A stretch of 36,383 nucleotides of DNA from Gemmatimonas sp. GTDB taxonomy: Bacteria > Gemmatimonadota > Gemmatimonadetes > Gemmatimonadales > Gemmatimonadaceae. The DNA lies in contig NZ_JAJTHI010000084.1 in the NCBI RefSeq assembly GCF_021298855.1, forward strand, positions 1 to 36,383, written 5' to 3'. Of this stretch, positions 12,419 through 17,303 are shown piece by piece. Under the pieces are notes generated by a model. The model made no database searches. It saw only the letters and a program-made list of their open reading frames with translations, and was not told where the DNA came from. The translations under genes and the position numbers were made by a program. Numbering within the stretch: position 1 is the stretch's first letter; the number at the start of each line of letters is the position of its first letter.

Positions 12419-13744
12419 ATGGACCGTCGCCACTTCGTGCAACAGGCCGCCGCCCTCGCGGCGCTGCCGGCGTTGAGCCGCCTTGGCGGCGCTGCCCACA
12501 CCGGGCCCGTACAGACGAAGCCGCTGGCGGTGAACGGCACCCGGCTCAACGGCTGGCTGACGGAGTTCGATCGCATCGGCCGCACGGCGGGTGGGATCAA
12601 CCGGGTCGCCTATTCGGAGGCCGATCTGGCCGGTCGCGCCTTCACGCGTGGCCTGTTCGAGCAGAGCGGGCTGACGCTGCGTCTCGACACGGCCGGCAAC
12701 ATGCTGGCGCGCGTGCCCGGCACCGATGCCCGGCTGGCGCCCATCCTGATCGGGTCGCACATCGACTCGGTCACCGACGGGGGCAATTTCGACGGGCCGG
12801 TGGGATCGTTTGCCGCGATCGAGGTGGCGCGTTCGCTGGCGGAGCAGCGCGTGCGGTTGCGTCACCCGCTGGAAGTGGTGGTGTGGCAGAACGAGGAAGG
12901 GGGGACGATCGGCAGCAAGATCGCCGTGGGGCTGCTCACGCCGGCGGATCTCGACAAGGTCGCGCGCAGCGGCAAGACCGTGCGTGAGGGGATCGGCATC
13001 ATTGGCGGCGACGTGACGCGCGTGGGCGAGGCGGTGCGCAAGAAGGGCGACATTGCCGGCTACATCGAGTTGCACATCGAGCAGGGGGGGCTGCTGGAGA
13101 AGGCCAGCCGGCAGATCGGCGTGGTGGAAGGCATCGTGGGGCTCCGCTGGTTCGAGATCACCATTACCGGCTTCTCCAACCACGCCGGCGCCACGCCCAT
13201 GGATCAGCGGCAGGACGCCATGCTGGCGGCGGCCCGGTTTACCGTGGCGGTGAACGAGGCCATTCGCAGCGAAGGCGGGCGGCAGGTGGCCACGGTGGGG
13301 CGCCTCAACGTGACGCCCAACACGACCAACGTGATCCCCGGGCAGGTGGTGCTCACGGTGGATCTGCGCGATCTGGAGCAGGCCAAGATCGATCGCTTCA
13401 CCGCCACCTTCGAACGGCTCGGGCGCGAAATCGGGGCGGCCACCGGCACGAAGTTCTCGTTCACGCAGATGGTGAACAGCACGCCGGCGCTGTCCGACCC
13501 GCGCATCATGGATGTGGTGCAGGGGAGCGCGACGGCGCTGGGACTTTCGCATCAGCGCATGCCCAGCGGCGCGGGGCACGACGCGCAGGAAGTGGCGCAC
13601 GTTGCGCCCATGGGGATGATCTTCATTCCGAGCGTGGGCGGCATCTCCCATTCGCCGAAGGAGTTCTCGCGGGCCGCCGACATCACCAACGGGGCCAACG
13701 TCCTGCTGAACGCAGTGGTGGCGGCGGATCGGGTGCTGCCGTAA
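12419..13744 (+). CDS. Exported M20-family amidohydrolase (N-carbamoyl-amino-acid hydrolase/allantoate amidohydrolase type)
   Basis: A 441-residue binuclear-metal hydrolase of the hydantoinase/carbamoylase branch of M20. Metal ligands are in place: H114 (GSHIDSV), D125 (FDGPVGS), E159-E160 (WQNEEGG), H219 (ELHIEQGG) and the late histidine in GGISHSPKEF. The lid/dimerisation domain has FSNHAGATPMDQRQDA. The N-terminus MDRRHFVQQAAALAALPAL has a twin-arginine export pattern, unusual for a family that is normally cytosolic. It would remove carbamoyl or ureido groups from amino acids or purine-breakdown products. No Shine-Dalgarno site is visible before the ATG. The gene is divergent from the PQQ dehydrogenase (129-nt gap, no clear promoter seen) and is followed by a large palindrome. 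Confidence 0.9.
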   Translation: MDRRHFVQQAAALAALPALSRLGGAAHTGPVQTKPLAVNGTRLNGWLTEFDRIGRTAGGINRVAYSEADLAGRAFTRGLFEQSGLTLRLDTAGNMLARVPGTDARLAPILIGSHIDSVTDGGNFDGPVGSFAAIEVARSLAEQRVRLRHPLEVVVWQNEEGGTIGSKIAVGLLTPADLDKVARSGKTVREGIGIIGGDVTRVGEAVRKKGDIAGYIELHIEQGGLLEKASRQIGVVEGIVGLRWFEITITGFSNHAGATPMDQRQDAMLAAARFTVAVNEAIRSEGGRQVATVGRLNVTPNTTNVIPGQVVLTVDLRDLEQAKIDRFTATFERLGREIGAATGTKFSFTQMVNSTPALSDPRIMDVVQGSATALGLSHQRMPSGAGHDAQEVAHVAPMGMIFIPSVGGISHSPKEFSRAADITNGANVLLNAVVAADRVLP

Positions 13745-13745
13745 G

Positions 13746-14005
13746 GCGGGGTGGGGGGTGGGGTGGCGAGGCTGGTGTGTTGGGCTACACGCAGACGGCA
13801 GACGGCAGGAACCACAGTTCGCAGACGGCAGGGCTGCGGTAGAACAACACGGTGCCAGCGCTGCGCGCGGCCCCGATGGCCCAACCGCAAAGGAATCGGG
13901 GGCGCCGCACCGCGGTCGCCCCCGTGTTGTTCTTCCGCATCCCTGCCCAACTGCCGTCTGTAGTTCCTGCCGTCTGCCGTCTGCTTGTGGCCCCCCCCAC
14001 CCCGC
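13746..14005. repeat. 260-bp nested imperfect palindrome before recC
   Basis: This fills the 313-nt gap between the M20 hydrolase and recC. Paired arms are 13746-13758 (GCGGGGTGGGGGG) with 13993-14005; 13791-13812 with 13963-13984 (22 bp, perfect, built of GCAGACG units); and 13841-13852 (AGAACAACACGG) with 13922-13933 (12 bp, perfect). The stretches between them also pair imperfectly, including GCGCTGCG..CCCCGAT against ATCGGGGG..CGCACCGC, with the centre near 13887. The G-rich left edge (13746-13765) could form a quadruplex. It may be a terminator, a non-autonomous mobile repeat or a structured RNA. No gene is visible inside. Confidence 0.85.
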
Positions 14006-14057: not shown

Positions 14058-17000
14058 ATGACCTTGATGTCCGTAATCACGGGGGATGCACCGGCGGTGC
14101 TCTTCGCCCGAATGGCGCAGGATCTCGCCGCCGCGCCACTCGCGCCGCTCGACGAGGAATGCATCGTGGTGCAGTCACTCGGCATGGACCGGTGGCTGCG
14201 CCAGCAGTTCGCCCGCACGTACGGCTGTGCCGCGTCGCTGGCCATGCCCTTTCCCGCGGCCTTCTGCCGGCGGCTGGCCTCCACGCTGCAGCGCGACCGG
14301 CGCTTTGCCACCGGCGACGGGGTCAGCATCGACACGCGCTTCGAGGAGCAGGCACTCACCTGGCGGGTGTTCACGCGGCTTGCCGACCGCGCCTTTCTCG
14401 CGCAGCCGGTGAACGCCCCGCTGCGCAGCTTCCTCGAGGGTGCCACCGACGCCAAGCGCTTCGGACTCGCCCAGCGCATCACCGCCTGCTTCGACGAGTA
14501 TCGACTCTATCGGCCCGAGCGGGTGATCACGTGGGAAGCGCAGGGCGCGTCCCCCGACGCTGGTGAGCACGAGCAGTGGCAGGCCGCGCTGTGGCGCACG
14601 CTGCTGGGAAACGAGCGCCCCGCGCACTTCGCCCGCTGGTTCCTGCAGACCATCGAACGGCTGGAGTCCATCGCCGATCGGCCCGTGGGCTTGCCTACGC
14701 GGGTGTCGGTGTTCGGGGTGTCCACGCTGCCGCCGCTGTTCGTGCGTCTGCTGCGCGCGCTGGCGCGCTTCGTGCCGGTGCGCTTCTACGTGCTCATGCC
14801 GCAGGCGCGCGGCTGGGAGCCCCACCGCGTCGGTCACCCGTTGTTCGAGGCGTTCGGCCACTCGTCGCGCGACTTCGTGCGCACGCTGGTGACCGAGGTG
14901 GCTCCGGTGGGAGTGGAGCACGTGGACCGTGGCCCCTGGCATGCCCCGGAAACGCCCACGCTGCTGCAGCAGCTGCAGCACGGATTGCGCTCCGGCATCG
15001 CCCCCCCGTTCGCGCCTGATTCGCACGATCGCTCCGTCACGGTGCACGTGTGTCATTCGCCACTGCGGGAGCTGGAGGTGCTGCGCGACCAGCTGCTCGA
15101 CGCTTTCGCCAACGATCCCACGTTGCGCCCGCACGACGTGCTCGTCATGGCCCCCGATGTGGAGCCGTATGCGGCCCTGGCCGAGGTCATCTTCGGACAG
15201 CGCCGCGGCGCTGACGCCGACGAACGCCCCGCCATTCCGTACCGCATTGCCGATCGCACGCTGGCCCGCGAGAGCGCACCGGCCACGGCGCTGGCCGGCA
15301 TGCTGCAGCTGGTCACGTCGCGACTGGCCGCGAGCGAGGTGCTGGCGTTGCTGTCGCAGCCGCTGGTGCGGGAGGCCGCCGGCGTGGCCCCCGCCCAAAT
15401 GGACCAGATCACCCGGTGGGTGGAAGATGCCGCCATTCGCTGGGGGCACGACGGCCCCACGCGTGCCGCCTGGCACGGTGTACCTCCGTTCGGCGAGAAC
15501 AGTTGGCGCACGGGGCTCGATCGTTTGCTGGCTGGCTACGCTACCGGCCAGGTGGAGGCCCTCGTGGGCGACGTGGCGCCGCTGGCGGGCGACGTGGCCG
15601 GTGACGTGGAGCTGCTCGGCCACTTCGTGACCTGGGTGGAGCAATTGGCCGCATGGGTCGACGTGCTGCGTGGCGAACGACGGCTCGCCGACTGGCCGCC
15701 GCTGCTGCAGCAGGGGCTGGACTGGCTGGTGGCACCCACCAACGCCGACGATCGGGCGGCCACCGATCGGTTGCGCAGCGATCTCGCGCGCCTGGCCGCG
15801 CAGGATACTGCACAGGATGCCGCGCAACCGGTGGCGTTCGAGGTGGTGCGGGAGTGGGTCATGAATCTGTTGTCCGACGACGAGCAGGCCAGTGGCTTCC
15901 TCACCGGCGGGCTCACGCTGTGCGCCATGAAGCCCATGCGCGCCATCCCGCACCGCATCATCGCCATGCTGGGGCTCGACGACCGCGCCTTTCCCCGGCG
16001 GCAGCGGCGTCCTGCCTTCGACCTCATTGGCGCCGACCCGCAGCGTGGCGACCGGGACCCGCGCGCCGACGATCGGCAACTCGTGCTCGACACGCTGCTC
16101 AGCGCCGGTGACCGCCTCATCCTGTCGTACGTGGGGCGCTCGCAGGAGAACAACGCCGAGATCGCGCCATCGGTGGTACTGTCGGAGCTGCTCGATGGCA
16201 TCGATCGGCTGGCGCCCGGCGGTGCGCTCCCCTCACGGCAACTGCGCGTGGAGCACCGCCTGCAACCGTTCAGCCCGGTGTACTTCGCGCAACACGCCGA
16301 CCGGGATGCGCGCCTGTTCAGCTTCGATACCGCTCTCGCGCGCAGTCTCACCGCCGGGGATCGCATGGACGCCCCGCCGTTCTTGCCCACACTCCCGCCG
16401 GTCCCGGTGCTGGTGCGTGATGCGCACACCGCGGTCCATGCCCCGCCGCTGGAGCTCACGGTGAACGAGCTGGTGGACGCGTGGCTCGATCCGGCGCGCG
16501 TGTACTGCCGGCGCGTCCTGCAGGTCACGGTGGCCGGCGACGACCCGCTCATCGAAGACGTGGAGCCCATGACGGTGGACGCGCGGCGTCGCACCATCGA
16601 ACAGCAGCGCATGCTGGACCGCACGCTGCAGGGGCGCAGCGAACCGGTGCGGGAACGGGTGCTGGCCGCCGCGAGCGGACACCTGCCGGCCGCCGCGCTG
16701 GGCACGCACTGGCATTACCGCCTGCGCGACGAGCTCTCCCCGCTGCTGGCGCGCGTGGGCGGCGCCATGTTTCTCGACCCCCTGCCGGTGGAGGTTCGCG
16801 GTGCCGACTGGACGGTGCGCGGTCACCTCGACCTGCAGCGCGAGGGCGAGCAGTGGCGCGTGCGCGCGGGCAAGCTCACGTCCCGTGACAAGGCGCGGGC
16901 CTGGGTCCTGCACCTGGTGCGTTGTGCCGCCGCCTCGCCGGTGCCAACGGTGGTCATTGCGCGCGACAAGGAACTCGTGCTGCCGCCACTCAACGACGCT

Positions 17001-17303
17001 CTCGCGCAGCTCGACATGCTCGTACAGGGCGTGCGCGCGCTGCACACGGCGCCGCTGCCGTACTTCCTGGAAGCGGCGTGTGTGTACCGCAGCAAGGCGC
17101 GCCGCGGCGATACCGGCGCCTTGGTCGCGGCACAACAGGAATACCGGCGCGAGCCCGGCTTCGGGCGCGGTGGTGGCGACGGCTGCGACCCCTACGTGCA
17201 ACTGCTCTGGCGCGGCCGTGACCCCGTCGTGGAATGCGCCGAGGCGTTCGTGGCCTGTGCCAATGCCTTCTGGGAGCGGTTCGACGAGGTGACGGGCGCA
17301 TGA
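14058..17303 (+). CDS. recC: RecC subunit of exodeoxyribonuclease V
   Basis: A 1081-residue protein, close to E. coli RecC (about 1120). Conserved blocks run in order: VVQSLGMDRWLRQQFA and MPFPAAFCRRL at the N-terminus, FGVSTLPPLFVRLLRALA, HVCHSPLRELEVLRDQLLDAF, HDVLVMAPDVEPYAALAEVIFG, KPMRAIPHRIIAMLGLDD, DDRQLVLDTLLSAGDRLILSY and GRSQENNAEIAPSVVLSELLD. RecC splits the duplex and recognises Chi in RecBCD; it carries dead helicase and nuclease folds. I chose ATG 14058 (MTLMSVITG; ATG 14067 is possible) because upstream sequence is palindrome. Its stop overlaps the recB start (ATGA at 17300-17303), the head of a recC-recB-recD operon. Confidence 0.96.
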   Translation: MTLMSVITGDAPAVLFARMAQDLAAAPLAPLDEECIVVQSLGMDRWLRQQFARTYGCAASLAMPFPAAFCRRLASTLQRDRRFATGDGVSIDTRFEEQALTWRVFTRLADRAFLAQPVNAPLRSFLEGATDAKRFGLAQRITACFDEYRLYRPERVITWEAQGASPDAGEHEQWQAALWRTLLGNERPAHFARWFLQTIERLESIADRPVGLPTRVSVFGVSTLPPLFVRLLRALARFVPVRFYVLMPQARGWEPHRVGHPLFEAFGHSSRDFVRTLVTEVAPVGVEHVDRGPWHAPETPTLLQQLQHGLRSGIAPPFAPDSHDRSVTVHVCHSPLRELEVLRDQLLDAFANDPTLRPHDVLVMAPDVEPYAALAEVIFGQRRGADADERPAIPYRIADRTLARESAPATALAGMLQLVTSRLAASEVLALLSQPLVREAAGVAPAQMDQITRWVEDAAIRWGHDGPTRAAWHGVPPFGENSWRTGLDRLLAGYATGQVEALVGDVAPLAGDVAGDVELLGHFVTWVEQLAAWVDVLRGERRLADWPPLLQQGLDWLVAPTNADDRAATDRLRSDLARLAAQDTAQDAAQPVAFEVVREWVMNLLSDDEQASGFLTGGLTLCAMKPMRAIPHRIIAMLGLDDRAFPRRQRRPAFDLIGADPQRGDRDPRADDRQLVLDTLLSAGDRLILSYVGRSQENNAEIAPSVVLSELLDGIDRLAPGGALPSRQLRVEHRLQPFSPVYFAQHADRDARLFSFDTALARSLTAGDRMDAPPFLPTLPPVPVLVRDAHTAVHAPPLELTVNELVDAWLDPARVYCRRVLQVTVAGDDPLIEDVEPMTVDARRRTIEQQRMLDRTLQGRSEPVRERVLAAASGHLPAAALGTHWHYRLRDELSPLLARVGGAMFLDPLPVEVRGADWTVRGHLDLQREGEQWRVRAGKLTSRDKARAWVLHLVRCAAASPVPTVVIARDKELVLPPLNDALAQLDMLVQGVRALHTAPLPYFLEAACVYRSKARRGDTGALVAAQQEYRREPGFGRGGGDGCDPYVQLLWRGRDPVVECAEAFVACANAFWERFDEVTGA

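Follow-up and report, generated by a model that had tools for sequence, protein, structure and literature searches.

A dispersed palindromic repeat of Gemmatimonas with a predicted two-way terminator at its core

The large palindrome lying between an M20-family gene and recC in Gemmatimonas sp. contains a full-length copy of a repeat that is dispersed in the same genome, and this element is probably a palindromic repeat of MITE-like, non-autonomous type that includes an intrinsic terminator working in both directions. Judged from its sequence, it would represent a new family of bacterial palindromic mobile repeats, the unusual part of which is the putative two-way terminator core. The window referred to below is the whole stretch of DNA analysed (36,383 nt of contig NZ_JAJTHI010000084.1).

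The gene for an M20-family amidohydrolase/peptidase (12419–13744, + strand; Pfam PF01546, E 2e-24) is followed in the window by recC (14058–17303, + strand; PF04257 and PF17946), the identities given earlier to recC, recB and recD being confirmed by Pfam. The distance from the stop codon of the former (13744) to the ATG of the latter (14058) is 313 bp, so that the palindrome (13746–14005) does have the length of about 260 bp reported in the first-pass annotation without filling the gap as claimed there. Three sets of perfect arms had been described and all are present: 13 bp (13746–13758/13993–14005, the outer G/C-run arms), 22 bp (13791–13812/13963–13984, within a pair of 51-nt arms that are 82% complementary) and 12 bp (13841–13852/13922–13933, within a 26-nt pair, 92% complementary, formed on the + strand by an inner left arm at 13827–13852 and an inner right arm at 13922–13947). 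The shared centre attributed to them holds for the two inner sets (13887–13887.5) but not for the outer G/C arms, which are centred 12 bp away (13875.5) and lie outside the repeat. It was this offset that first hinted at two nested things, and the palindrome is made of two parts: the repeat element (13791–13984) and outer G/C-run arms belonging to the flanks. The left outer flank (13746–13790, + strand) bears the G-rich arm, is conserved among copies only over its last ~4 nt, and appears to form one side of an outer hairpin enclosing the nested element; the C-rich partner arm (13993–14005) lies in the right outer flank (13985–14005, + strand).

Over 271 nt the folding energy is -191.9 kcal/mol (z = -11.2 for the + strand, -12.4 for the - strand), a stability reached by 0/200 dinucleotide shuffles, which confirms that the palindrome is real. 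The quadruplex potential ascribed to the outer G-runs was rejected, as the outer G arm is devoid of a canonical four-run motif. A known RNA family was rejected likewise, the window giving no Rfam match at gathering score, and a simple scan for consensus promoters found nothing.

The copy in the window (194 bp, + strand) matches the family covariance model with 190.5 bits. In an alignment of 29 copies the family consists of a long arm, hairpin 1, a spacer (CCCAACCGCAAAGGAAAT), hairpin 2 and a complementary arm, the spacer sequence AAGGAAAT being near-invariant. The left terminal arm of the window copy (13791–13824, + strand) is composed of GCAG-NNN heptads (GCAGACG GCAGACG GCAGGAACCACAG nnn GCAG) and pairs as helix 1 with its reverse complement, the right terminal arm (13951–13984, + strand). 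Terminal inverted repeats, as in MITE-like elements, are present as 34-nt outer arms, with 95.5% of cells paired over the 29 copies. Compensatory changes occur at 5/12 pairs of hairpin 1 (helix 2; 13850–13875, + strand), which is degenerate in the window copy and folds weakly there (z -0.64), and at 5/11 pairs of hairpin 2 (helix 4; 13897–13924), where 97.2% of cells are paired. Overall, 95.9% of cells are paired and 15/55 pairs have pairing-preserving changes on both sides; cells with double changes number 77, whereas shuffles give 24 and slid controls no more than 20, the slid controls weighing more since the copies are related and the shuffle counts cannot be read as probabilities. This covariation supports the predicted structure of an arm, two GC hairpins and a complementary arm.

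Terminator signatures, each made up of a GC hairpin (9 bp or longer) with a T-rich tail behind it, are found on both strands in 24/32 full copies versus 1/160 shuffles. Unselected Gemmatimonadota windows (1252) have the signature on both strands in no case and on one strand in 29. The signature is missing from at least one strand in 8/32 full copies, and the T-tails are imperfect (5–7 T out of 9). In the window copy, a single stem usable on both strands (13897–13924, -25 to -28 kcal/mol) is followed on the + strand by the tail TGTTGTTCT (13925–13933) and on the - strand by the tail ATTCCTTTG. The latter is provided by the central spacer (13876–13896, + strand), which contains CCCAACCGCAAAGGAAT and presents an A-tract on the + strand. 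The inner left arm contains AGAACAACACGG, the T-rich tail of the minus-strand hairpin in many copies. The core is retained in some shortened forms and in some foreign ones (G003, G042), and is missing from others. We infer from these features that the core is a bidirectional intrinsic terminator, predicted to end transcripts arriving from either side. RNA polymerase from either direction would be released at hairpin 2 with the second arm not yet made, and on the - strand release would often take place at hairpin 1. Since transcripts would end at the stem, ahead of the second arm, the long arms are likelier to be DNA-level features, and their main role may be that of substrates in mobility or conversion, in the form of a cruciform or a single-strand hairpin. 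The first-pass suggestion of a structured RNA is thus supported in part only, in that the core reads as a terminator with covarying hairpins. A related reading, in line with RNA proposals made for BIME, NEMIS and YPAL, is that the element protects or processes mRNA 3' ends rather than terminating transcription. Very stable hairpins do lie directly 3' of stop codons, and a precedent for repeats acting as determinants of mRNA stability is cited in PMC2267715, but T-rich tails and A-tracts on both strands typify intrinsic terminators and would be needless for protection, and we regard this reading as unlikely.

With the palindrome as query, the genome itself (91 contigs, 4.09 Mb) gave 90 strand-matches, and a profile run on the fetched stretches located about 41 places (23 of full length). 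Copies occur on either strand and for the most part in differing surroundings; family counts are based on copies fetched as stretches, to which the sister genome G015 contributed 9 full copies. The suspected repeat family is confirmed by this search. The conserved unit corresponds to 13791–13984 plus a few flanking bases (AACN before, NGTT after), measures about 194–204 bp, and has a pairwise identity between copies of 77% (median), reaching 95–96%. Near-identical copies must also exist, because contigs C19 and C74 both begin with an identical 141 bp that stops inside the element. Relatives carrying matches belong to Gemmatimonas/Gemmatimonadaceae. A covariance model derived from 29 copies detected elements of full length only in the genome studied (G000) and its sister, and partial or diverged forms in G003, G042 and a few other genomes. 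Plasmid and phage collections contained no match to the element, and spread via phages or plasmids was rejected on this ground. In the literature searched, we found no paper pairing Gemmatimonas with palindromic repeats.

The position of the window copy 53–73 bp before recC could suggest a leader regulating that gene, or a block to recombination or replication specific to the recBCD operon, and the first-pass annotation had considered the link to double-strand-break repair worth attention. This arrangement is seen in the window only. The gap upstream of recC measures about 90–100 bp in the two nearest relatives, G015 and G003, versus 313 bp here; it contains a small hairpin with a G-rich left arm and a C-rich right arm, and the element is absent from it, as it is from the corresponding gaps of all other relatives examined. 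About 40 copies lie elsewhere in the genome and adjoin other genes, so that the sequence is not one conserved solely as a recC leader, the situation named at the outset as contrary to a mobile element. A recC-specific leader was therefore rejected, any such role being extremely improbable; the proximity of recC is incidental, and no link of the element to recC function is apparent.

Comparison of orthologous sites points to mobility. Genes of G015 are 92% identical to those of the genome studied, and searches with the flanking sequences identified the orthologous site for almost every full copy. Four full copies are common to both genomes, and 13 sites, including that of the window, are without the element in G015. 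Sites both filled and empty, along with the dispersed copies, agree with the mobile hairpin repeat that was among the options first listed. The clearest insertion is at C41:96918, where G015 has GGTCGGGGTC-TCCAGACTGCTGGT-GATCCCGAC and G000 carries the element within that loop. No target-site duplication is visible at the orthologous sites compared, the intergenic flanks having diverged. End-like remnants were seen at two of the "empty" sites (L232, L249), and some of these sites may represent losses. Energy-based permutation over 27 non-redundant sites shows that flanks pair more strongly with their true partners than with permuted ones (p 0.001–0.006 for most window sizes), ungapped position-by-position pairing giving only a weak signal. 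Outer-flank complementarity is strong at about 7/27 sites, including that of the window, and about 20/27 have no strong outer hairpin; about a quarter of the sites appear to be nested in an outer hairpin. Several orthologous sites in G015 hold truncated copies or other long palindromes. Two of the latter (L225, L226), at places occupied by the element in G000, are formed of GCAGGGG/CTGCCTC heptads, and different palindrome families succeed one another at these gene ends.

Such successions are also what would be expected if nothing had moved, that is, if fast-growing terminator hairpins had arisen in place through template switching during replication, slippage of the heptads and conversion among copies. 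The arms are heptad repeats, as this requires, and hairpin blocks have been swapped between orthologous copies: L183:1151–1348 and L208:1150–1347 are mostly identical apart from a cluster of eight changes that turns one hairpin from GGCGGC..GCCGCC into GGAGCC..GGCTCC, which suggests conversion between copies. Inside-out arms in arrays of ~119 bp (G005/G008/G017) could be taken in the same sense. Growth in place is nonetheless improbable, as copies at unrelated sites are up to 95% identical over ~195 bp, two contig ends share their 141 bp exactly, and a spacer that is conserved yet not repetitive (AACCGCAAAGGAAAT), like the defined ends of the element (AACN..NGTT), requires copying from elsewhere. 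In the ~119-bp tandem palindromes themselves (L265, L043 and L053; G005 and G008), the arm sequence of the element is inverted and surrounds a CGGCGCG hairpin.

Heuristic gene calls (ORF length and codon-position GC) put the neighbouring genes in convergent orientation for 18 copies, in tandem for 14 and in divergent orientation for 3, with a stop codon mostly 16–60 nt away (46 bp for that of the M20-family gene in the window). Since a circular chromosome has equal numbers of convergent and divergent junctions, the 18:3 ratio (15:3 once three orthologous duplicates are dropped) reflects a real bias towards gene 3' ends, which could arise by target choice or by selection. A mobile repeat would insert at gene 3' ends, sometimes in the loop of a pre-existing terminator-like hairpin, and insertion there would be tolerated because the element brings its own terminator; the window copy, 3' of the M20-family gene, would isolate that gene from recBCD.

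Little is known about how bacteria acquire, lose and exchange their terminators, and a two-way terminator element placed mainly between convergent genes would offer a direct route of replacement as well as account for the tolerance of insertions. We tentatively propose, as a possibility going further than the reading preferred above, that a selfish palindromic element equipped with its own two-way intrinsic terminator inserts at terminator-like hairpins or within their loops, that Gemmatimonas lineages swap gene 3' ends by its transposition, and that core and mobility arms are interchangeable modules. For the last point we cite G042, in which a similar core (AACCACCAAGGAAAT and GC hairpins) is joined to different arms. 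The palindrome in question in this single-contig genome of the genus (L279:1431–1770; C1:211149–211349) is nested, ~340 nt long and folds at -229.5 kcal/mol; its arms differ from those of the element but it has two GC hairpins and the same spacer.

As to what moves the element, the fragmented assembly of the genome studied yielded no larger one sharing its ends, and an autonomous parent recognisable by matching ends was rejected, as no end pairs are spaced beyond element variants, the single exception being a 640-bp pair of single-mismatch end matches of which only one fits the family profile. That the element is of REP/REPIN type and is moved by the RAYT-like Y1 transposase encoded in its genome is a reading that we consider unlikely. 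A Y1_Tnp gene (PF01797) is present in 8/30 genomes of the genus, including 5/5 of those with at least 25 arm matches and 3/25 of the remainder; it is single-copy, as is usual for RAYTs, and an HUH enzyme acting on ssDNA would suit both the hairpins and the missing target-site duplication. The element-rich genomes nevertheless represent two lineages only, and G003, whose genome is 59% complete, bears partial copies, with no Y1 gene detected. Furthermore, TGACCCC-type repeats (in arrays or as short repeats at most of the loci) lie near 8/8 Y1 genes and element arms near 0/8, and the element is ~196 bp long with paired GCAG ends, not a 20–40 bp hairpin with an unpaired GTAG/CGTC tag (PMC3733652). 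The RAYT was rejected as dedicated mobiliser, given that its loci carry TGACCCC repeats instead. GACCCC is not significantly enriched near element copies (5/27 sites versus 2.9 expected, p 0.16). The RAYT-like Y1 gene of G000 (L054:1162–2080, contig C30) has inverted 12-bp repeat arrays on both sides (GCTGGGGTCAGG / CCAGCTCTGACC), and the Y1 genes of relatives have GACTCTGACCCC-type repeats.

The nearest known kind by behaviour would be YPAL/RU-2 of Yersinia, compared here by its published description. According to PMC2229807, these are ~168 bp palindromes whose targets span or adjoin dyad symmetry, and they resemble the Gemmatimonas element in being intergenic, non-coding palindromic repeats of similar size that are not A+T-rich and lack TA ends, and whose sites are filled or empty in relatives; the Gemmatimonas element may favour dyad symmetry too, the excess of flank pairing being significant overall and strong at about 7/27 sites. 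A conserved structure is a further likeness (PMC2267715). YPAL differs in having target duplications of 3–26 bp, none being visible for the Gemmatimonas element, and a two-way terminator core does not figure in the YPAL descriptions consulted. REP, BIME and REPIN are likewise extragenic palindromic repeats, and the genome does hold a RAYT-like gene, but the Gemmatimonas element is much longer; the two defining REP features tested, a tagged 20–40 bp hairpin and a RAYT flanked by the repeat, are both absent, the tag (GTAG/CGTC) being lacking and the RAYT being flanked by other repeats. REP dimers nested in palindromes are described from A. variabilis, T. roseum and H. neapolitanus (PMC3733652). 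With MITEs such as Correia/NEMIS, ERIC and RUP the element shares a length below ~200 bp, inverted ends, the lack of coding capacity and dispersed copies; unlike them it is GC-rich, has two internal covarying hairpins, shows no TA duplication, and has no parent IS that we could find. Uptake sequences are words of ~10–12 nt, whereas the Gemmatimonas element is a ~200 bp composite with long arms. Inverted pairs of them in Neisseria and Pasteurellaceae are similar in that a repeat forms terminator hairpins at gene ends (PMC2267715).

A further repeat-rich structure was noticed at the contig end, where heptad-type repeats (TCCGAGG/TCGGAGG) are densely arrayed over positions 1–420 of the window and include a direct duplication of ~252 bp. 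The folding of this array surpasses even that of the element (z -7 relative to a GC regression).
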